Of a stretch of 51,692 nt of DNA, positions 1-35,996 are shown piece after piece. Source of the DNA: a virus; the IMG/VR virus record IMGVR_UViG_3300005529_001122, positions 1-51,692 of that record. The stretch is one strand, 5' to 3'. The notes below the pieces were generated by a model. That model ran no database searches. It saw only the letters and a list, made by a program, of their open reading frames with translations, and was not told where the DNA came from. The translations under genes and the position numbers were made by a program. Positions within the stretch are counted from its first letter, which is position 1. The number at the start of each line of letters is the position of its first letter.

Positions 1-417
1 TCAGATTACGATCCCACCAAGAGCACATTGCTGACCTGGCTCTGTAATCAGGCGCGGTACAACGCACTTAGCCAAGTCCGAGATCATGGTCGCCGCGTGG
101 CTCGGCTCGATAAGTTGGGGGAGGCTGTCCGAATCGGGCTGCTCGGACGCGATAAGGGGCAAGATGGCGAGGACCACTTCCTGGATGCCATCGAGGCCCA
201 GCAGATAATGGCCCAGTACGGCCATGAAATTGCTACCGACCACGGAGACGACGAGGTGTTCCTATTGATGGCGGCGGGAACGAAGGATGAAGCAATGTTT
301 GTGGAAGCGCTCCATCTCACCGGATCGCACGCTGAGAATCGGGCCGAGGTTCGGCGCCGGCGCGATCTCATTCGTAAACGCCTCGAGCGAGTACGCTCGA
401 AATTGCGCACAAAGTAA
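1..417 (+). CDS. Sigma-70-like protein, C-terminal part (cut by the window edge)
   Basis: The frame is open from base 1, so the start lies outside the window; 138 codons remain before a TAA. The first residues (DYDPTKSTLLTWL, then an Ala/Arg-rich helix) resemble sigma region 2 of ECF-type factors. The basic, helical end (EVRRRRDLIRKRLERVRSKL) occupies the place of a region 4 helix-turn-helix. It is the first gene of a + strand run ending in an ImmA/IrrE peptidase and a NurA-HerA pair, so it could control that locus, with the peptidase removing it or a partner. The fold is judged by eye from pattern only; another small DNA-binding protein is possible. Confidence 0.5.
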   Translation, partial: SDYDPTKSTLLTWLCNQARYNALSQVRDHGRRVARLDKLGEAVRIGLLGRDKGQDGEDHFLDAIEAQQIMAQYGHEIATDHGDDEVFLLMAAGTKDEAMFVEALHLTGSHAENRAEVRRRRDLIRKRLERVRSKLRTK

Positions 418-478
418 ATGGTGAATGGCTCCAACTGACATGACCAATACCAGGAAGCAGGACAAAGAGGGGCGCGTG

Positions 479-856
479 ATGGGTGCTGACACTCTGCGAT
501 CAAGCCTTGTGGAGCGCGCGGAGAGTGATGCGCATTTTCTGGCCAGCGCCTTGGCCGCATGGCGCTCAGCTCACCCAGATCTTGACCCACATGATTTGTT
601 GCAATGTGAGAAAGATGATCTCTGGCGAATTGCTTTGTCGCCGCGCCCGAAGAGTGACACCGAGTTCGCTACTGCTGCGAAGCGGATCGCGGACGCGTTC
701 GCGATCGACCTTGACGGATTGATATCGCTTCTCCGACTGGCAGACGCAATGGACGCCCTAGCAACTCCTGATTCAGGATCCGACGAGCTTCTGATGGCCG
801 CTCGCGATCGCTCCGATAAGGACAAGGATCCGAGCGATGAACCTGATCAGCGGTGA
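479..856 (+). CDS. Small helical protein between sigma-like and ImmA/IrrE genes
   Basis: Not recognised as a named family. The 125-residue product is acidic, predicted helical and has no membrane segment or cysteine motif. ATG 479 was chosen because a GAGGGG sequence lies about 7 bases upstream; ATG 425 and 440 are in frame but have poorer sites. The centre (about residues 55-90) looks like a short helical DNA-binding or adaptor bundle. Its stop overlaps the ImmA/IrrE start by 20 bases, implying coupled translation. ImmA/IrrE peptidases usually cleave an XRE-like repressor encoded next to them, so this protein is a candidate substrate or adaptor. That role is inference. Confidence 0.55.
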   Translation: MGADTLRSSLVERAESDAHFLASALAAWRSAHPDLDPHDLLQCEKDDLWRIALSPRPKSDTEFATAAKRIADAFAIDLDGLISLLRLADAMDALATPDSGSDELLMAARDRSDKDKDPSDEPDQR

Positions 857-1619
857 TGTTCTCGATTCTATTCAACGGTTCTGGAACGCCGTAGCTTTAG
901 CCTACCCAGGCGTCGAGGCGCGATTTCCCCGTCAGCTTGAAACCGCTATTCCTGCAGCTCTGCCCCTAGCAATCGTTTCAATCCGAGACTTGAGGGGTTC
1001 GAGTGTTAACGATTGGCTGGCAAAATTGTCGGTGGCAATGCGCGATTTTGGGCCTGACCGGCCGTTGCGGGGCTGTCTCGTAGCATTTCGAGGACGAGGC
1101 CTAGTATTTGTCGATAGCAATGACAGTCCGGATGAGACTCAGCTTACGTTGGCCCACGAGGCGGCGCATTTCCTCCTTCACTATCTTGGACCTCGGGCTA
1201 GGGCCGTTGCTCGCCTAGGGCCAAAAATTCTTGAAGTTCTTGATGGTCTCCGTGCTCCGAGGAATGAGGAGCGCCTCGCCGGCGTCCTGCGGGGCTGCCC
1301 CATTGGGCAATACCGGCATATGATGGGCCGGGGCCAAGAGGGTGCAATTGTCGATTCGGACGTAGAACGGGCAGAAACCGAGGCTGATCTGGTCGCTCTC
1401 GAATTATTGGCTCCGGCGGAAGCTGTCGCACGCATTTGCCGACAGCGAAAAGGCGGCATTGACGAGATGACCGCGTTGGAAGTGCTGCAGACCGAATATC
1501 GAATACCGACTTGGGGAGCAAAATTGCAGGCCCGGGTCATTATTCGGCGTTATGGCAGCCGACGGTCAAATTGGCTGGAAGGTTTAGGGAATCTGGCCAA
1601 AAATCAGGCTGAACCTTGA
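837..1619 (+). CDS. ImmA/IrrE-family metallopeptidase
   Basis: This 260-residue protein has the zinc motif HEAAH at residues 107-111, with the usual hydrophobic flanks (LTLAHEAAHFLLH). A downstream ERAETEADLVALELLAP stretch near 178-194 matches the third-ligand helix of the family, with Glu180 or Glu182 as the likely ligand. ImmA and IrrE enzymes act in the cytoplasm and switch on silenced mobile elements or stress genes by cleaving a repressor. An AAGGAT sequence about 7 bases before ATG 837 supports the start. It sits between a small helical protein and the NurA-like nuclease, suggesting a damage- or phage-triggered switch for the locus. The substrate is unknown. Confidence 0.82.
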   Translation: MNLISGDVLDSIQRFWNAVALAYPGVEARFPRQLETAIPAALPLAIVSIRDLRGSSVNDWLAKLSVAMRDFGPDRPLRGCLVAFRGRGLVFVDSNDSPDETQLTLAHEAAHFLLHYLGPRARAVARLGPKILEVLDGLRAPRNEERLAGVLRGCPIGQYRHMMGRGQEGAIVDSDVERAETEADLVALELLAPAEAVARICRQRKGGIDEMTALEVLQTEYRIPTWGAKLQARVIIRRYGSRRSNWLEGLGNLAKNQAEP

Positions 1620-1725
1620 GATCGATTGGCTGGGGCCCAGCTGGTGATTTGTTGGGCAAAGAATTCGTGTCCGAAAAGTTGCGGGTGGAAGCGATAAGGG
1701 GCGAGTAATTCAGCGAGGTGCTGCG

Positions 1726-3042
1726 ATGCCAGACGGGTCCATACCTCAGTCCGGGGCGACAGGGCAGGGTCATGCCGGGACCCAAGCTGACGCGAATGCA
1801 GACGATTCGTCGCTGAATGCCGGGGCTGCATCAGCGCGAATCCAGCCCAGGGTCCGCGGATCGGAATCCCATCAATCAGCAACGCAAACGGAACCTGACG
1901 AATACGAGAGGGCAACCGGCGAGCGTCTCAGTCAGACGCTTGACATCAATTCGTGGGAGCCAGCGCAGCGGCTGGCCGAGAGCTATGGGCGGTTTGAGCG
2001 AGAGGTAGCGGACGCTGTGCGGACGGAGGCCTTGGTCCGCAATGACGTTCGAAAGCAAGTGCTTCCAATCCTGTCGCAAGCGCCCCATGCTCCTCGCGGA
2101 GCGGGCCATTACCGCGTCTCTCCTGGCCAACTGAAGGACGTGCAGAACAAGATACTTTTCAATGGCCTGACGCAAGCCGCCGATGGGACGTCGGTGGTCT
2201 TCGAGACATTGCCGGTCAAGATGGTGCAGATCGGCGTTGCTCTCGTGAATTACTGCGGCGACAACGGCACGTGGGGTCACCGCATATATCGCCGAGACGT
2301 GCGCATGCGCGGCGGTAATCTCGTCGAAGACGCGATTGCAATTTTGGAGCGGCGCGCGCGGAGAGACGGCGAACGGCAGGTAAGTGTCACTGAGCTTTTG
2401 CGGCGTGCGGTGATGACCTATGGAGAACGCGCAGTGCTCACCTACAAGGCGACTGCGCCATGGAGGATGGGACACGGGAATCCACTTGCGTATGAGCTTC
2501 TAACTGGCTCGGGCGATGCCCGGATAATTGGCATTTCGCTTCCCGTGCTGCGTGATCTAGTGCTTGATCACAAACAGTTCGTTTTCATTCCAAGCGGCAC
2601 GAAGGACGATCTCCTGCTAACGATCGGAAATGCGCTTCTTCCCCTTGAGTATGCGATCGTCAAGGACTTCAGCGAGTATCTCGCTGATCTCCTTGCCGGC
2701 CATTACCGCGGCGAGGAATTCGAACAGATGCATGTGCGCTTGGAAGATTTCAAGGCCGCCGCGGGCCCTTCGCTGATCATGGGCGTCTTCCGTGCTTCAG
2801 CATTTGCTCCACCGCAAGTTTTTTATGCGCACGCCGATCACGCGCACGAGGCGGCACTGATTGCCATGGCCGATGCCATGCTTGTGGACCATCGAGGGTT
2901 TCCAATGCTGCTCGATCTAGCAGATCGCCTCTGCGTTGGTCTGTTTGGCGCCGACACATTGGTTCGGCCGGCAACTGCCGCGTATGCGCAAGCGCAGGAG
3001 GGAACCCAGTATCTGCCGGAACGTCGAACGCGAACCGCCTGA
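1726..3042 (+). CDS. NurA-like nuclease, partner of HerA
   Basis: The 438-residue product has about 65 N-terminal residues of low complexity, then a folded region. The DGT motif at Asp153, followed by a hydrophobic strand (VQIGVALVNY), matches the first metal-binding motif of the NurA nuclease domain. A C-terminal stretch near residue 390 (GFPMLLDLADRL) fits the family's closing G-x-P-x-x-L-x-x-A-D signature. NurA is a 5'-3' exonuclease/endonuclease that works as a dimer on a HerA hexamer to resect DNA ends. The next gene, 38 bases downstream, is a HerA ATPase, which strongly supports the call. The 106 bases before this gene hold no clear terminator, so it may share the upstream transcript. 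Confidence 0.72.
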   Translation: MPDGSIPQSGATGQGHAGTQADANADDSSLNAGAASARIQPRVRGSESHQSATQTEPDEYERATGERLSQTLDINSWEPAQRLAESYGRFEREVADAVRTEALVRNDVRKQVLPILSQAPHAPRGAGHYRVSPGQLKDVQNKILFNGLTQAADGTSVVFETLPVKMVQIGVALVNYCGDNGTWGHRIYRRDVRMRGGNLVEDAIAILERRARRDGERQVSVTELLRRAVMTYGERAVLTYKATAPWRMGHGNPLAYELLTGSGDARIIGISLPVLRDLVLDHKQFVFIPSGTKDDLLLTIGNALLPLEYAIVKDFSEYLADLLAGHYRGEEFEQMHVRLEDFKAAAGPSLIMGVFRASAFAPPQVFYAHADHAHEAALIAMADAMLVDHRGFPMLLDLADRLCVGLFGADTLVRPATAAYAQAQEGTQYLPERRTRTA

Positions 3043-3080
3043 ACAGACGTCAAAATCTCTTGTGATTTGAGGAGAACGCT

Positions 3081-5000
3081 ATGTCCAGTGAAATGCATGA
3101 CTCCGATGCGGTGGGCCAATCCAGTGATCAGGCCGGAGTGCCACGCGTTGACGGACAGGATTGGATTCCGCCGTTGGACGGTCGCGTGTCGATCGCGCCG
3201 GCTGAGGCACCGGCCGAGGCATTTGCACGACTGGAGCGTACCGCCCAGGCGAATGGAGGCGAATACAAGCTGCCCAAGGAGTACGAAGGTTCGTTTGGCC
3301 GCACGCTGTTTGACAGTCCGGCGAGCGAGGACGGAAGCGTTACGGTTGTGCTGCCGCCGCCGGAGATCGAGCACGTCACCACTCAAGCCTTGGTTCGAAT
3401 CCAAAGCTATCCCGATAATCGAGTCTACGTCGGCGCTGTGAGCGCTGGTCCCTTCTATGACCCAGACGGTCTCAAGGCAGATAGTCCGACGATGGTCGTT
3501 TCAGCTGTTTCGGGAGCAATCATCATGCCGAGCCACCATGGACGGCTCAGCGTCTCAATTATTGGCCTGGAGCACAATGGACGCATTGGTCCGGCAAACC
3601 GGCGGCCCCGACCGAACTCACCGGTTTTTTTGGTGCCCGACCAGGAGATGTCGCGCATTCTGGGCCTGAGGGGCGATTTCCCTCTTGGAGTTGTCGTTGG
3701 GCACGAACGGGTCGATATCCCCGTGCCTGTGCACGACAAATCCGTTCTGTATCGCCACACCGGCATTCTCGGCACGACCGGGGGCGGCAAATCAACGACG
3801 GTCACAAATTTTGTCGGAGGGCTTAGGAATCACGGCGCTGCCGTAGTTCTGCTTGATACCGAGGGCGAGTACACCACCATCAATGAACCGACCGACAACG
3901 AGGTCATGATTGAGCTCCTGCGGGAACGTGGAATCGCGCATCAAGGGATGTCCGATACTCATGTTTATCACCTTGTCGGAAGGGAAACGGCGAACCCACG
4001 ACATCCAAGTATCACGCCGTTCACATTGTCGTTTGCCGCGCTCTCGCCTTACGCCGTCATGGAAATCCTGGAGATGAACGACGCGCAGCAGAGTCGCTTC
4101 TTGGCTGCCTACGACTTGGCGAAGCGCTTCATGCGTGATTATCGGGTGTTTCCAACGACTCAGCAGGAGGAGCAACTCGTCCTGGATTACGATGAACAGG
4201 AAATGGGTTATCCGCGGTTGACACTCTCTTTCCTGATCGATGTCGTGACAGCTTGCATCTGCGCTCTGCAGAACCAGCCACAGCCGTCGAACGTCCTGAA
4301 CCGCAATATCTTCGGTACAAACTGGGACGCAATAATCCGCACCATCAATGGTGCCGGCCTCGAGAAAAGCGCGCCAAGCTGGAAGAAAGTCAGTGGAATG
4401 CTGTGGCGCCTTCACCGCCTCGGCATATTCGACAGCCGTGCGGCCCGGACGCTGGATGCTCGTACTATGCTGCAGCCCGGCCGCGTCAACATCATTGATC
4501 TCTCCGATCTCGACGGCGCTGTCCTGCGTAACCTTGCGATTGCACAGATTCTGCGACAGCTACACGAGACCCAAGAGGCCAACTACGTCGCGGCCAACGA
4601 GCGCGGCCAGGCGCCAACGCCAGCCCATGTGGTGATTGAGGAAGCCCACGAGTTTCTGTCCTCAGCTCGCATTCGGCAGATGCCGGTTCTCTATCAACAG
4701 GTCTCTAAGATCGCAAAGCGAGGGCGCAAGCGTTGGCTCGGCCTAACGTTCGTAACGCAGCTACCACAGAATCTTCCGGATGAGGTTCTCGCTCTCGTGA
4801 ACTCCTGGATACTTCACAAAATTCAGGATGAAAGTGTCGTCAACCGGCTGCGTAAGACGATTCCCTCGATCGATCCATCGCTATGGAAAATGATCGCCAG
4901 CTTGCGATCTGGCCAGGCGGTTGTCCAGTTATCGCATATGAGCCGGCCAATGTTGACGGCGATCAATCCCTCGCCTTATCGGTTGCGCCTGGAGAACTAA
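3081..5000 (+). CDS. HerA-type hexameric DNA-translocating ATPase
   Basis: A 639-residue FtsK/HerA-superfamily ATPase. Residues about 90-215 form a beta-rich HAS-barrel-like N-terminal part. The Walker A motif GTTGGGKST begins at Gly231 with Lys237, and the Walker B motif HVVIEEAHEF carries Glu520-Glu521. A conserved RGRKRWLGLTFVTQ segment follows, as expected for the sensor/arginine region of this family. HerA pumps duplex DNA through its ring and feeds an attached nuclease, here the NurA-like product encoded just upstream. A GAGGAG site 7 bases before ATG 3081 fixes the start. The last four bases overlap the end of a convergent methyltransferase gene, so the two ends abut exactly. Confidence 0.88.
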   Translation: MSSEMHDSDAVGQSSDQAGVPRVDGQDWIPPLDGRVSIAPAEAPAEAFARLERTAQANGGEYKLPKEYEGSFGRTLFDSPASEDGSVTVVLPPPEIEHVTTQALVRIQSYPDNRVYVGAVSAGPFYDPDGLKADSPTMVVSAVSGAIIMPSHHGRLSVSIIGLEHNGRIGPANRRPRPNSPVFLVPDQEMSRILGLRGDFPLGVVVGHERVDIPVPVHDKSVLYRHTGILGTTGGGKSTTVTNFVGGLRNHGAAVVLLDTEGEYTTINEPTDNEVMIELLRERGIAHQGMSDTHVYHLVGRETANPRHPSITPFTLSFAALSPYAVMEILEMNDAQQSRFLAAYDLAKRFMRDYRVFPTTQQEEQLVLDYDEQEMGYPRLTLSFLIDVVTACICALQNQPQPSNVLNRNIFGTNWDAIIRTINGAGLEKSAPSWKKVSGMLWRLHRLGIFDSRAARTLDARTMLQPGRVNIIDLSDLDGAVLRNLAIAQILRQLHETQEANYVAANERGQAPTPAHVVIEEAHEFLSSARIRQMPVLYQQVSKIAKRGRKRWLGLTFVTQLPQNLPDEVLALVNSWILHKIQDESVVNRLRKTIPSIDPSLWKMIASLRSGQAVVQLSHMSRPMLTAINPSPYRLRLEN

Positions 5001-6235
5001 TGAACTGTCCTCGTAAATCCAAGGACCACTTCGCGCCGCATGCGCGCGTTTAACTGAGCTGACCCATTTTGTAAGGGAGGTGGCAAGTATCGGCGGTTTG
5101 CTGGCAGCTTACGCGTGCGGCGTGCAAAAAGCTTGAGGCCGACTGATTCGGCGACTGCCGATACAACGATAGCGTTGCGAATGAACGTTCCCCTTACCGT
5201 GTTTTCGCCGACTACGTAAATGGCCTTGCCCCCTGGCACGAGCACGCGTGCGGTTTCGCTCAGAGAAAGTCGCATGTCATCTATGTAGCGGGCGAGAACT
5301 GCTCCGTCTCCAGAGCGCAATTGCGGGCGGAGTTTCAGGTCGCGCATGATGTCGCGAATTGCTGGTTCATCCTGCGGAGCGCCATTTCCAACTTCGGTTC
5401 CAACGCTCGACGCTCTGATGCGGCGAAGTTCGTCGATGCTGTAGCCCATCCAAACAAGTGTAAACTTACTGCATCGCATGTAGTCGATCGCGTTGAGGTA
5501 AGGAGGAGATGTCAGGACCAGATCGACGGACTGTTTTGATAACGGAAGGCTGCGCGCATCACCTTCGTAGAGGTGAGGCGAGGGACCACGGGATTGACTA
5601 CTCGCGTGGATGCAGTTTTCGACCACCCGGGACATCGCTGTCGCAAACGTCCGGAACGGCTTAGTCGGGGCGCGGTCATAGGATTTGTGAGGGCGACTGT
5701 GCGCCAAATCCATCGCCAATGAAGCTCCTGCCTGCTTGGCGATAATCAATCGGGAAAATCCGCACCACAGAACGTCACGCGTTGTACGATCCCGAACTCT
5801 ACCGATAGCAGTAGAAAGCGAGGCGAGCTGTTTGCGCGCGTAATCGTCAAACCAGTATGAAATGAATCGTCGCGTCTCCTCGTCCGCCCCATGAGGATAT
5901 GAATTTCGTGCGGGGAGAGAGGCGAAGATCGACCTGGCGCGAGAGAGGACGTCTGCTGCCTTTTCGTGAACCTGTTCTGGGTCAATCGTGGTCGACCAAA
6001 CTTTTGAGATGAGCACCGCGAGCGGGTCGATGTCTACGCCGAACGCTCGATGTCCTTTGCAACGGGCAAGCGCGATCACCGTGCCAGACCCCATCATCGG
6101 GTCCAACACGCGAAGAGGCTTCTGTGCCTCGCTCAACACCTCAAGAGCGATCCCGGGCGCCATGCGAGCAGGAAAAGGATGGACGGGCTCGCGCCCCAAG
6201 GCCTCATAGACTGTTTTCTTGTGGGATCCGATCAT
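4997..6235 (-). CDS. Site-specific DNA methyltransferase of the defence island
   Basis: This 412-residue SAM-dependent amino-methyltransferase has motif I DPMMGSGT at residues 45-52, followed by GVDIDP, and the catalytic motif TSPPY at about 242-246. Motif I therefore precedes motif IV, as in the alpha or gamma arrangement; SPPY is used by N4-cytosine and some N6-adenine enzymes. About 190 residues separate the motifs and may hold the target-recognition part. The first ATG, at 6235, is used; an upstream in-frame TTG gives only six more residues. It converges with herA and ends inside the last codon of that gene. In this setting it may mark self DNA for a NurA-HerA nuclease, which is inference; no restriction endonuclease gene is visible nearby. 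Confidence 0.8.
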   Translation of the reverse strand: MIGSHKKTVYEALGREPVHPFPARMAPGIALEVLSEAQKPLRVLDPMMGSGTVIALARCKGHRAFGVDIDPLAVLISKVWSTTIDPEQVHEKAADVLSRARSIFASLPARNSYPHGADEETRRFISYWFDDYARKQLASLSTAIGRVRDRTTRDVLWCGFSRLIIAKQAGASLAMDLAHSRPHKSYDRAPTKPFRTFATAMSRVVENCIHASSQSRGPSPHLYEGDARSLPLSKQSVDLVLTSPPYLNAIDYMRCSKFTLVWMGYSIDELRRIRASSVGTEVGNGAPQDEPAIRDIMRDLKLRPQLRSGDGAVLARYIDDMRLSLSETARVLVPGGKAIYVVGENTVRGTFIRNAIVVSAVAESVGLKLFARRTRKLPANRRYLPPPLQNGSAQLNARMRREVVLGFTRTVH

Positions 6236-6401
6236 TATCCAGCCCAAACTCAAGGTGAACGCGAGGGCGCATGAATGGCGAGAACTCCACTATTGCACAG
6301 GACTGTAGGATCGCAAAATGTCCCAGTCGGCCGTCCACCTTTGAAGGGCGCACGGCAAGTCGGCTGCGATGCAGGGCGTTCAACGAGAAGGAGTAGGCGT
6401 C
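6236..6401. promoter_or_regulatory. Divergent intergenic region between methyltransferase and HEPN-like gene
   Basis: This 166-base gap separates the start of the - strand methyltransferase from the + strand HEPN-like gene, so both promoters should lie here. No convincing -35/-10 pair or operator palindrome stands out. The right end carries an AAGGAG ribosome-binding site about 8 bases before ATG 6402. The arrangement would allow opposed control of the modifying enzyme and the downstream gene. Confidence 0.3.
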
Positions 6402-6979
6402 ATGCCTGCGGACAACGTGGGTCCTCACGATCTTCTGTCAGATGTCACTGAACTCGACTTAGTCCGCCATCTTCTGGCCGATCTCCATGACGACCTGATC
6501 GAAAAGGTCGCCCGTTTTCGACAACTGATCGACCTCGGCTTGCAGATGGGCAGACGAACAATGATCTTTGGGGGCCACGCCGCTCATCACGCGTGGATTG
6601 AGGCACGGTCGTCTTTTGTTCACGGAAACTATGCGGCGACGGTCCTTCTCTGTCAGAGCCTTGTAGAGAATCTTCTCGCCGCGTTTCTGCATGCCGGGCT
6701 GCTGATGGATGATCTACCCGATCGAATGCTTTTCGGGAAACGCTGCGACGTTGCCGCGAGCGGGATGTCATTTCGGATCAGGACGTGGAAGACCTTAGCC
6801 GACTGATGGAGCTGCGAAACCCACTATCGCATTTTCGGCATGTGCAAGAAGTCGCCAATCTTGATCGGCGCGCCATCCAGACTGGGGAAACGGCGGAGGA
6901 GCTTCTGAGCCGAGACGCAGTATTTGCAATCGGTCTCGCTGTGCGAATGTTGGGCAAACCAGCCTTTCGGCTTGGCTAG
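6402..6979 (+). pseudogene. HEPN-like gene broken by a single-base frameshift
   Basis: The first part reads in one frame from ATG 6402 (AAGGAG about 8 bases upstream) to a premature TAG near 6804. The second part continues in the -1 frame to TAG 6977-6979. Adding one T to the run at 6730-6733 restores a continuous protein of about 190 residues whose join reads DRMLFRETLRRCRERD. The restored protein has a long amphipathic helical region, and its end carries RNPLSH, an R-x4-H motif typical of HEPN-fold RNases and toxins. The break may be a true mutation, an assembly error in a homopolymer, or phase variation. HEPN assignment rests on the motif and helical pattern only. Confidence 0.6.
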
Positions 6980-33370: not shown

Positions 33371-34678
33371 TCACGCGGTCAACCGCTCTTCCTTCAAGGC
33401 ATCGAAGGTGCGGCCATCGTCCGCGAGTGTCGCCGCGCCTCCCGCCTGGCGCTGCCAGCGTTCGATGATCACATCGCAGTAGCGTGGGTCGATCTCGATG
33501 GCGAGACAAACACGACCGACGGACTCGGCAGCGATCAGGGTCGAGCCGGATCCCGCGAAGGGCTCATAGACGAGCTCACGTTTCGCGCTGTTGTTCACGA
33601 TCGGCCGGCGCATGCATTCGACCGGTTTCTGGGTGCCGTGCTCCGTGGCCTCATCGTTCTCGCCGGTGGCGATGGTCCATAGCGTGGTTTGATCGCGCGC
33701 GCCCTGCCAGTGGCCGGTCGCTCCCTTTCGCACCGCGTAGAAGCACGGTTCGTGCTGCCAATGATAATCGCCGCGGCCCAGCACCAAGCGCGGCTTCGCC
33801 CATATGATCTGTGTCCTGATCAGGAAGTCGCACGCGTCCAGACTCTCCGCGACGGTCGGCGCGTGGATCCCGGAGTGCCAGACATAAGCGACCTCGCCCG
33901 GAAACAGGCTCCAGGCGTCGCGCCAGTCGGCGCGGTCGTCATTGCTGACTTTGCCGGTCCGTGCTGTCGCGGACACTCCCGACTCGTTTCGCCAGCTCGG
34001 ATCGTAGTCGACGCCGTAGGGCGGGTCCGTCACCATCAGGTGCGGACGCGCGTCGCCCAGTAGCCGCTGAACATCGGTCGCAACCGTCGCGTCGCCACAC
34101 AGCAGACGATGCGGCCCAAGCAGCCAAAGATCGCCTGGCCGCGTTACAGCCGCGGTGGGCGGTTCTAGGACTTCGTCCTCTTCCTCGGATGCTCCGCCCT
34201 CGTCGAGGCCGTCGAGCAGGCGGTCGAGCTCGTCCTCGGCAAAGCCGAGCAAATCGAGCGCGACGCCATCCTCCTTGAGCCGATCGAGCTCGGTAGAAAG
34301 CAGCGCCTCGTCCCAGCCGGCGTTGAGGGCGATGCGGTTGTCGGCGAGCCTGAATGCTCGTGCTTGCGCATCGGTCAGGTGCCCGAGCCGAATGATCGGA
34401 ACCTGCTGCAGGCCGAGCCGCTTCGCCGCGATGATGCGGCCGTGGCCAGCGATCAGTACGCCACGATCGTCCACGAGACAGGGAACGTTGAAGCCGAACT
34501 CGGCGATCGAGCCTGCAATCTGGGCAACCTGCTCGTCGGGGTGCGTCCGCGCGTTCGCCGCGTAGGGCAGGAGCCGATCGATCGGCCAGAGCTCGACCTG
34601 CAGCGTGTCACTCGTCGTCGGGGATTGCGACCCCACGCTGTCGCGCGACCGCTTCAAAGGTTTGGCCTTCGCCATCAA
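33371..34678 (-). CDS. ParB-domain / DNA methyltransferase fusion, copy 2
   Basis: A 435-residue protein with a ParB/Srx-like nuclease-fold domain at about residues 30-120 (LLPYAANARTHPDEQ, GHGRIIAAKRLGL). A beta-class methyltransferase follows: motif IV TDPPYG at 217-222 before motif I YEPFAGSGST. This order fits N6-adenine methylation of the beta class. A helical hinge with acidic repeats (GASEEEDEVLEPP) joins the parts. It overlaps the upstream paralogue by 71 bases if ATG 34678 is used; a start at a later Val or Met would shorten the overlap. ParB-methyltransferase fusions are typical of phages that protect or mark their DNA. Confidence 0.83.
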   Translation of the reverse strand: MMAKAKPLKRSRDSVGSQSPTTSDTLQVELWPIDRLLPYAANARTHPDEQVAQIAGSIAEFGFNVPCLVDDRGVLIAGHGRIIAAKRLGLQQVPIIRLGHLTDAQARAFRLADNRIALNAGWDEALLSTELDRLKEDGVALDLLGFAEDELDRLLDGLDEGGASEEEDEVLEPPTAAVTRPGDLWLLGPHRLLCGDATVATDVQRLLGDARPHLMVTDPPYGVDYDPSWRNESGVSATARTGKVSNDDRADWRDAWSLFPGEVAYVWHSGIHAPTVAESLDACDFLIRTQIIWAKPRLVLGRGDYHWQHEPCFYAVRKGATGHWQGARDQTTLWTIATGENDEATEHGTQKPVECMRRPIVNNSAKRELVYEPFAGSGSTLIAAESVGRVCLAIEIDPRYCDVIIERWQRQAGGAATLADDGRTFDALKEERLTA

Positions 34679-35996
34679 GTTTCACTGGCTGATCGGGAAA
34701 GAGCTTGCGCCACCGGCGGAGCGCGACATCGACGTATTCGGCAGCGAGCTCGATTGCCCTGGCTCGCCGGCCGGCACGTTCTGCAGCGATGATGCCGGTG
34801 CCTGACCCGGAAAAGGGCTCGTAGACGATCTCTCGCTCATTGCTGTAGGCGCGCATCACGAATTCCGGCAGCGCGACCGGAAATACCGCCGGGTGCTCGG
34901 TCTCGATGCCGCGCGCCTTGTGCCGCGTGATGCGAATGACGTTGTCGGGGATGCGCGTTTCCTGAACGCCCTGGCCGGCGTGCGTCCAATCACCGACATG
35001 GCCATCCTTGTGGCGAATGCCACCGTGCGTATCGTTGACGTGCCCAGCCCATTTGCAGGGCACGATCTTGTTTGGTTTGCGGGCCTTGCGATTGAAGTGA
35101 AAGATGAACTCGAAAGCCGGCGCCAGCCGTCCGTTCCAGTCGCCCGGCAATCCCGGTCCCTGGTCCCAGACGTAGAACCCGAATCGGCGCCAGCCCTGCT
35201 CGCGCATCCATTCGAGCCAGGTCTGCCAATAGGGCTGCCATTCGTTGTCGCGGTGGACAAGGCCGAGATTGACCAGGACCTGAGCCGAGTCCGTGACCGG
35301 CAATGCTGCGAACACGCCGCGCATGAGCGCGTCCCAATTGCCGACACCGCCGGTCGTGTAATCGCGCTGGTTACCGTAGGGCGGTGACGTGAAGACCAGC
35401 GCGGCGCGTTCGGCGTTCATCACTCGCGCCACGGCCGCAGCATCGGTGCTGTCGCCGCAGAGCAGGCGGTGGTTCCCGATCAGCCAGAGATCGCCCGCGC
35501 GAGTGATCGGCTCACGCGGCGGCGCGGGCATTTCGTCGGCTGCATCCTCGCCGGCAGCCTCTGCGCTCTCGGCATCGTCGAGCGGCGCCATAAGCGCGTC
35601 GAGCTCAGCCTCGGAGAAGCCCGTCAGCGAAAGGTCGAATCCGTCGCCGTTGAGCGCATGCAGCTCGGCCGCGAGCAGTTCCTCGTTCCAGCCGGCGTTC
35701 AGCGCGAGCTTGTTGTCGGCGATGACGTAGGCGCGCCGCTGGCCCGGCGTCAGGTGGCCGAGGACAACGACAGGCACCGTGACGAGGCCAAGCTTGCGCG
35801 CAGCAAGCAGCCGGCCATGGCCTGCGACAATGCCGCCCTCCGCATCGACCAGGATCGGATTGGTCCAGCCGAATTCGACGATCGAGGCAGCGATCTGCGC
35901 CACCTGGTCGTCGTCGTGCGTGCGGGCGTTGCGCGCATAGGGGCTGAGCCGATCGAGCGGCCAATGCTCGACCGCGTCGGGCAATCGCGGCGTCAT
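34608..35996 (-). CDS. ParB-domain / DNA methyltransferase fusion, copy 1
   Basis: A 462-residue protein with the same ParB (about 10-110) plus methyltransferase layout as its downstream neighbour. The catalytic motif here is TSPPYG (about 203-208), and YEPFSGSGTGIIAAE is motif I. SPPY instead of DPPY, together with low identity between the two target regions, suggests a different target base or site, possibly N4-cytosine. The two genes are likely an old duplication followed by divergence. It starts at ATG 35996, and a region with several small palindromes lies upstream. No restriction endonuclease is adjacent. Confidence 0.83.
   Translation of the reverse strand: MTPRLPDAVEHWPLDRLSPYARNARTHDDDQVAQIAASIVEFGWTNPILVDAEGGIVAGHGRLLAARKLGLVTVPVVVLGHLTPGQRRAYVIADNKLALNAGWNEELLAAELHALNGDGFDLSLTGFSEAELDALMAPLDDAESAEAAGEDAADEMPAPPREPITRAGDLWLIGNHRLLCGDSTDAAAVARVMNAERAALVFTSPPYGNQRDYTTGGVGNWDALMRGVFAALPVTDSAQVLVNLGLVHRDNEWQPYWQTWLEWMREQGWRRFGFYVWDQGPGLPGDWNGRLAPAFEFIFHFNRKARKPNKIVPCKWAGHVNDTHGGIRHKDGHVGDWTHAGQGVQETRIPDNVIRITRHKARGIETEHPAVFPVALPEFVMRAYSNEREIVYEPFSGSGTGIIAAERAGRRARAIELAAEYVDVALRRWRKLFPDQPVKLDGEGQTFEAVARQRGVAIPDDE

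Follow-up and report, generated by a model that had tools for sequence, protein, structure and literature searches.

A conserved sigma–g2–immA–nurA–herA locus with a frequent methyltransferase partner is a candidate inducible, restriction-like system of bacteria

The first 6,979 bases of the virus record analyzed here (the window, 51,692 nucleotides in full) most likely carry a copy of a bacterial system that is conserved, horizontally mobile, and built of two halves. The regulatory half most likely comprises translationally coupled genes for a sigma factor, a small protein (g2), and an ImmA/IrrE-type peptidase, and the effector half a NurA-fold nuclease and a HerA ATPase. We give a probability of about 0.58 to the reading that this is an inducible restriction-like system, in which a protease-controlled sigma switch governs a NurA-HerA effector usually accompanied by an exchangeable methyltransferase. 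The locus looks like an unnamed phage-defence system. Its genes, with the HEPN-like gene beside them, are the following.

1–417, + strand: sigma-70-like (ECF-type) factor, C-terminal part (5'-open ORF, 5' end lost at the record edge)
425–856, + strand: g2, small XRE-HTH-like protein (ORF; alignment, with HTH Pfam matches in a few members)
837–1619, + strand: ImmA/IrrE-type zinc metallopeptidase (Peptidase_M78, PADLOC capP, HExxH)
1726–3042, + strand: NurA-fold nuclease-like protein, without a Pfam family (AF2 model and Foldseek)
3081–5000, + strand: HerA-type hexameric DNA translocase ATPase (DUF87; PDB sequence match 9x1l)
4997–6253, − strand: amino-type DNA methyltransferase (DPMxGSG ... TSPPY; N6_N4_Mtase, PADLOC MTase_II)
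6369–6979, + strand: HEPN-like (RNPLSH) accessory gene outside the core, frameshifted near 6715–6735

An earlier note on positions 1–6979 had listed sigma-like, ImmA/IrrE, NurA-like, HerA, convergent methyltransferase, and HEPN-like genes, and this observation is confirmed. Lying between sigma and immA, g2 was not named in it. As the note had also recorded, the methyltransferase overlaps herA by four bases (herA stop at 5000, methyltransferase 3' end at 4997), the two genes being convergent. The GC content of the island is indeed below that of the adjoining prophage (57.3% versus 64.4%), as is its GC3 (0.52–0.65 versus 0.82–0.85). This GC3 gap fits the proposal that island and prophage were transferred separately, as does the finding that 49 related virus contigs lack the island.

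Relatives of the locus were not found at once. No relatives of NurA or ImmA came from scanning viral contigs with single proteins or from tblastn against plasmids and phages, and for the scans this is explained by automatic peptide patterns that sat on variable regions. Nor did an initial genome scan give a match; it used a two-row NurA alignment whose pattern also lay on a variable region. The family was opened by a hand-made pattern for the Walker A motif of HerA. Co-occurrence of the genes elsewhere, on which the earlier single-system reading had been made to depend, was then looked for and found for sigma–(g2)–immA–nurA–herA. Gene order and strand are identical in 60 of 62 loci from at least 10 phyla, which rules out an accidental mixture of genes, and the same order is seen in all 14 loci retrieved via NurA alone. 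The NurA-fold gene adjoins herA in 62/62 loci. Evolutionary distances of HerA correlate with those of NurA (rho 0.73), sigma (0.60), ImmA (0.53), and g2 (0.46), and 0/500 permutations reached values as high. The sigma-g2 and g2-immA junctions overlap or abut (medians of −8 and −4 bases), and the immA-nurA gap is at least 30 bases in 36/60 loci, leaving space for a promoter.

The single-system reading, which stands for these five genes, fails for the HEPN-like gene, present in 3/62 loci, all of alphaproteobacterial type; its homologues are confined to the Mesorhizobium loci L103 and L118. In the window a frameshift at about 6715–6735 divides the gene, and tblastn with an intact 222-aa Mesorhizobium protein (L118:6211-6879) places the two halves in different frames, with 47 and 51% identity. 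It is an alphaproteobacterial extra outside the system, and a role as core toxin is ruled out by its presence in so few loci and its broken state in the window. Taken as a whole, the earlier interpretation is partly supported.

Within the regulatory half, the truncated sigma-like ORF of the window gives weak NCBIfam sigma matches (E 0.004), and a full-length homologue (L119) matches Sigma70_r2 at 2.2e-6. Sigma homologues lie upstream of g2 in all complete loci. The g2 family shares a conserved C-terminal L-x-A-A-R-D motif, in which A125/A126 are invariant and R127 is kept in >90% of 38 aligned members; a simple AA[RL][DEHQ] pattern is found in 58/61 g2 proteins. HTH Pfam matches are significant in a few members (best HTH_31, 2.1e-5). 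The AF2 model of g2 is all-helical (pLDDT 85.6), and Foldseek against the PDB gave no significant structural match, so that a role for g2 as substrate rests on conservation and analogy. By that analogy, g2 is predicted to be the target of the ImmA peptidase, acting as an anti-sigma factor or repressor. ImmA itself matches Pfam Peptidase_M78 (2.8e-7) and PADLOC capP (1.2e-6), keeps HExxH in 61/61 homologues, and has an E180 that is invariant in 29 homologues. A simple ECF promoter pattern showed no clear enrichment upstream of sigma (1/60) or nurA (3/61; control 0/61).

In the effector half, a NurA fold for the product of positions 1726–3042 is supported by its AlphaFold (AF2) model (pLDDT 85.5). 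The best Foldseek match of the model is SsoNurA (2ygk, E 9.4e-7, probability 1.00), followed by the Thermococcus kodakarensis HerA-NurA complex (9x1n) and the NurA entry 3tal, with modest TM-scores to the three (0.34–0.48). Pfam NurA matched neither the window protein nor any of 45 homologues, scattered weak Pfam hits being all that was seen, and a PDB sequence search with the window protein returned nothing. Residues Q168, E234, and D383 are invariant in all 62 NurA-like proteins; D153 of the DGT motif, from its sequence presumed to be the first catalytic residue, is retained in 46/62, window included. HerA matches Pfam DUF87 (4.8e-19), its closest PDB sequence match is HerA of the T. kodakarensis HerA-NurA complex (9x1l, 3.5e-20), and its Walker A motif, GILGTTGGGKSTT, and EEAH are conserved.

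The methyltransferase of the window (N6_N4_Mtase, 4.1e-7; PADLOC MTase_II, 1.1e-28) is a frequent but exchangeable partner of this core. The part of the earlier reading that placed it in the system holds as a strong association, qualified by its exchangeability and its absence from all Myxococcota copies. That the core is a real operon and the methyltransferase an unrelated gene merely sharing defence islands appears distinctly unlikely. Such independence would agree with the 19 loci that have no methyltransferase, with the three placements seen (31 upstream on the same strand, 9 downstream convergent, and 3 upstream divergent), and with the weak co-variation with the core (rho 0.19–0.23). Yet chance neighbours would be expected to differ in family, whereas a methyltransferase of one and the same family stands beside the core in 43/51 non-Myxococcota loci, mostly within tens of bases. 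Its several subfamilies and weak co-variation are also what is expected of an exchangeable modification module.

The distribution of the system is patchy, with 1/289 genomes in Alphaproteobacteria, 17/301 in Chloroflexota, 1/297 in Bacteroidota, 4/247 in Actinomycetota, and 2/199 in Acidobacteriota (anchor genome counted). In Myxococcota it is common (56/193 genomes). All 11 Myxococcota loci examined lack the methyltransferase, and D153 is lost in all 11 as well as in five copies from one Bacteroidota clade. Because the methyltransferase and the putative catalytic Asp are both missing there, the Myxococcota copies may have a different function, one that would seem nearer to housekeeping or stress response; both losses count against a defence reading. 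Some 155 bases upstream of sigma, 6/11 Myxococcota loci share a palindrome close to TACCACCCGGGAGGTA; it was not found in loci outside this phylum, which makes it a clade-level lead only.

Known systems resemble the locus in part. Like archaeal HerA-NurA (Sulfolobus, Thermococcus) and the Deinococcus operon, it has a HerA translocase beside a NurA-fold protein whose modelled fold matches SsoNurA and TkNurA. Unlike them, it has a sigma/HTH/peptidase switch and a linked methyltransferase, its 46 NurA-like members searched fall outside Pfam NurA, and D153 is lost in two lineages. With SIR2-HerA and HerA-DUF4297 it shares a HerA ATPase and partner enzyme in a defence-type setting, and PADLOC HerA models match at 8e-28; the partner here, however, is NurA-fold, with no SIR2 or DUF4297 match in PADLOC or Pfam, and the window HerA reaches 58 bits where the cut-off of NCBIfam HerA_antiphage is 800 bits. 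As in CapH-CapP (CBASS), PprI-DdrO, and ImmR-ImmA, a small HTH protein (the HTH being significant in a few g2 members) precedes a coupled ImmA/IrrE peptidase, but here sigma is upstream in every complete locus and nurA-herA stand as the output genes. DISARM, BREX, MADS, and other methylation-linked systems also combine methyltransferase, ATPase, and nuclease in one locus, and the exchangeable methyltransferase recalls the DISARM classes. In the window genes, PADLOC nevertheless found no DrmA/DrmB, PglZ, BrxC/BrxL, or Mad kinase, and its partial mad8/mad2 matches were confined to HerA and the methyltransferase. The same analysis bears out the earlier view that the locus does not match DISARM, BREX, SIR2-HerA, or HerA-DUF4297 as systems. 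No description of the five-gene system was found by full-text searching and targeted reading of journal literature, mostly outside subscription titles. With no Pfam model for the NurA-like and g2 families and no system match in PADLOC 2.0.0, current annotation misses the system.

The neighbours of the loci bear on three other roles for the whole locus. Defence genes are more numerous near the loci than in a control set, in a small comparison (112 and 107 proteins) where some matches are not independent owing to three near-identical Mesorhizobium loci. In L119, L129, and L156, herA is directly followed by a cas1 gene on the same strand, whereas the families listed for the control set do not include Cas1; Z1 is also a neighbour. 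These genes speak against a damage-inducible repair operon, in which ImmA, g2, and sigma would sense damage, NurA-HerA would resect ends, and the methyltransferase would be a neighbour with a separate role. Such an operon has precedent in archaeal NurA-HerA, reported as an end-resection complex (PMC12977600), and in the HerA-NurA operon of Deinococcus (PMC10904395), and it would suit Myxococcota, which commonly carry the system without a methyltransferase. We nonetheless consider it unlikely, given the sparse, patchy presence and tight methyltransferase linkage outside Myxococcota, the adjacent prophage (window) or recombinase (L003), and the loss of the D153 motif in the very lineage that carries the system most often.

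A DNA-transfer or mobile-element module, with HerA pumping DNA for conjugation or donation like Thermus TdtA and NurA processing it, would account for the resolvases, rve integrases, and DUF5712 protein in the flanks, and a similar ATPase serves DNA donation in Thermus (PMC5365140). However, these mobile genes vary from locus to locus, the recurrent flank families listed include no type IV secretion or pilus family, and Myxococcota copies are broadly retained, all of which makes this role very improbable. Scarcely plausible is a CRISPR auxiliary module acting with Cas proteins. The three Cas1 genes, the RAMP and Cas_GSU0053 proteins that flank methyltransferase-less loci, and the naming of NurA and HerA as putative CRISPR auxiliary genes in PMC10910872 point that way, but cas genes are near only a few of the 62 loci, and most loci stand alone or with the methyltransferase.

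For the inducible restriction-like system that we favor, we infer the following course. In resting cells, g2 would keep the sigma factor, or the promoter, silent. Single-stranded DNA from phage replication or DNA damage would activate ImmA, which would cut g2, the probable site being the conserved C-terminal xLxAARD motif or its vicinity. Released sigma would then drive nurA-herA, and the HerA hexamer would pump DNA into a NurA dimer for degradation, conferring anti-phage activity; the linked methyltransferase would limit self-damage by methylating host DNA. The switch has precedents in PprI, which cleaves DdrO, and in CapP of CBASS, which cleaves CapH, both reactions being promoted by ssDNA (PMC10904395). 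More tentatively, and at somewhat less than even odds, the family may be an unnamed class of inducible immunity, in which proteolysis-released sigma turns on NurA-HerA and interchangeable methyltransferases set self/non-self, with a Myxococcota branch that dispensed with both methyltransferase and putative catalytic Asp, became a near-core gene set, and took on another role.

Work on NurA-HerA has treated it as a repair machine of archaea. The present loci represent a divergent bacterial branch that, in at least 10 phyla, is tied to a sigma/HTH/peptidase switch and usually to a methyltransferase, and the Myxococcota copies offer a natural test of how the machine acts without one. If the system gives immunity, it would be one in which proteolysis gates the transcription of a HerA-nuclease effector, and it would shed light on how a DNA-degrading machine is kept silent in bacteria until it is needed.

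A tailed prophage fills the right 44 kb of this IMG/VR virus record (51,692 bases); its genes include those for repressor, primase, terminase, portal, capsid, tail, and lysis functions. This prophage also encodes a ParB-like/DNA methyltransferase fusion (phrog_498, 34608-35996), which gives the record a second methyltransferase. The left 6,979 bases contain seven open reading frames (ORFs), in this order:

sigma-like C-terminal fragment, truncated at the record edge
g2, a 143-aa protein
ImmA/IrrE peptidase (immA), with direct domain-search support
NurA-like protein (nurA), 438 aa
HerA ATPase (herA), 639 aa, with direct domain-search support
methyltransferase, convergent with herA, with direct domain-search support
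6369-6979, HEPN-like gene with an RNPLSH motif, disrupted by a frameshift

For the truncated window copy, sigma matches are weak; a full-length homologue, however, matches Sigma70 region 2 at 2e-6. As described in the earlier note, the methyltransferase gene overlaps herA convergently by 4 bases. The HEPN-like gene is disrupted: an intact homologue from Mesorhizobium, 222 aa long and without a Pfam family, aligns to it in two different frames, the frameshift being either a sequencing error or a sign of a pseudogene.

To find relatives, we searched GTDB species genomes and virus contigs with a degenerate HerA Walker A pattern, which identified 54 loci in the former and one other virus contig. 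In local searches, NurA adjoins HerA wherever the stretch is long enough, with sigma-g2-immA upstream. The earlier note proposed searching other genomes for the same six-gene order, and the core does recur: sigma-g2-immA-nurA-herA is complete, ordered, and on one strand in 60 of 62 loci (20-kb regions). One exception ends at a contig end, and the other (L133) has no detectable separate sigma ORF. Because 14 of the 62 loci came from a NurA profile alone, the association is independent of the HerA pattern. The core is a conserved unit, and pairwise distances of its proteins co-vary. By record titles, its hosts include Chloroflexota, Bacteroidota, Myxococcota, Actinomycetota, Acidobacteriota, Planctomycetota, Pseudomonadota, Bacillota, Armatimonadota, Syntrophaceae/Syntrophobacteraceae lineages, KSB1, and Lindowbacteria. 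Most clades have it at low prevalence, whereas Myxococcota have it often (56/193 genomes). In the HerA tree, sequences cluster by phylum, yet Bacteroidota and Chloroflexota split into several separate groups, as some lateral transfer would produce. HerA of the window groups with those of Mesorhizobium and Sphingomonas (SH-aLRT support 100%), making the island of alphaproteobacterial type. In the other virus contig, a serine-recombinase-like gene (L003:14923-16284) adjoins the system, which points to mobility.

Is the island part of the phage? Its GC3 is 0.52-0.65 vs 0.82-0.85 in tested phage genes, its proteins are absent from 49 related virus contigs, and in several of these contigs chromosomal-looking genes, identified by eye, start right after the lysis cassette. 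The island is therefore either host flank or cargo at the phage end. In one related phage contig, genes resembling a Vsr endonuclease and a cytosine-C5-methyltransferase (L194:12748-16061, by eye) lie right after the lysis cassette, at a site matching that of the window's island.

The Pfam NurA model matches none of 46 members of the NurA-like family. The AlphaFold model, confident except at the N terminus, has archaeal and other NurA structures as best PDB matches. Q168, E234, and D383 are invariant across 62 sequences. D153, at the position of the NurA DG(S/T) motif and putatively catalytic by motif rather than superposition, is retained by 46 of them; the sequences without it are all 11 from Myxococcota and a Bacteroidota clade of five.

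The methyltransferase (METHYLTRANSFERASE) belongs to a family present in 43 of the 51 loci outside Myxococcota. In 31 of these it lies upstream, on the strand of the core, in nine downstream and convergent as in the window, and in three upstream and divergent. None was found in the 11 Myxococcota loci. The family comprises several subfamilies and shows weak co-variation with the core, which points less to an obligate subunit than to an exchangeable partner for modification.

Flanking proteins (112, at most two per side, from loci with a methyltransferase; PADLOC cut-off 1e-10) match 183 PADLOC models and 107 control proteins of the same genomes match 50, numbers inflated by redundancy, so that only gene kinds were compared. 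The flanks include Cas1 in three loci. Cas1 is missing from the control models listed, which represent single proteins of the UvrD, cysteine-desulfurase, and RT-associated-helicase types. The three Cas1 genes (L119:13312-14415, L129:11960-13669, and L156:12542-13558), in loci of Chloroflexota and Lindowbacteria, immediately follow herA and share its strand. Three near-identical Mesorhizobium loci (L118:12394-14235, L103, and L148) have a Z1/SWI2/SNF2 ATPase gene between herA and the methyltransferase gene. A figure legend in PMC10910872 lists NurA and HerA among putative CRISPR auxiliary genes, an entry that may concern some members of this family.

The g2 protein is highly variable save for a C-terminal xLxAARD motif (simple pattern in 58/61), and XRE-type HTH models match a few members. 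In size, place before immA, and conserved C-terminal site, g2 resembles DdrO and CapH, which PprI and CapP respectively cleave; for the DdrO studied in PMC10904395, the cleavage region spans residues 116-121 in the C-terminal domain. By analogy, rather than proof, g2 may be an ImmA substrate. The sigma, g2, and immA genes overlap or abut, and a gap often precedes nurA, so nurA-herA could have its own promoter. With published PprI-DdrO and CapP-CapH behaviour (PMC10904395) as precedent, the simplest model, extrapolated beyond gene content and fold, is that single-stranded DNA would activate ImmA, which would cleave g2; sigma would then gain activity, nurA-herA would be expressed, HerA would feed DNA into NurA, and the methyltransferase would limit self-damage.

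The Myxococcota branch is the strongest ground for caution on this mechanism. In the 11 loci read (L108, L109, L141, L149-L153, and L160-L162), D153 is replaced by Ala, Asn, Thr, or Cys, and the lack of both this residue and the methyltransferase suggests a different or non-nucleolytic role. Six of them have a palindrome close to TACCACCCGGGAGGTA at ∼155 bases before the sigma gene. We found no description of the five-gene system in the open-licence papers searched. HerA with a nuclease partner is an already known kind of defence/repair machine; the new elements here are its subfamily of NurA, the switch made of sigma, HTH protein, and peptidase, and a methyltransferase that can be exchanged.
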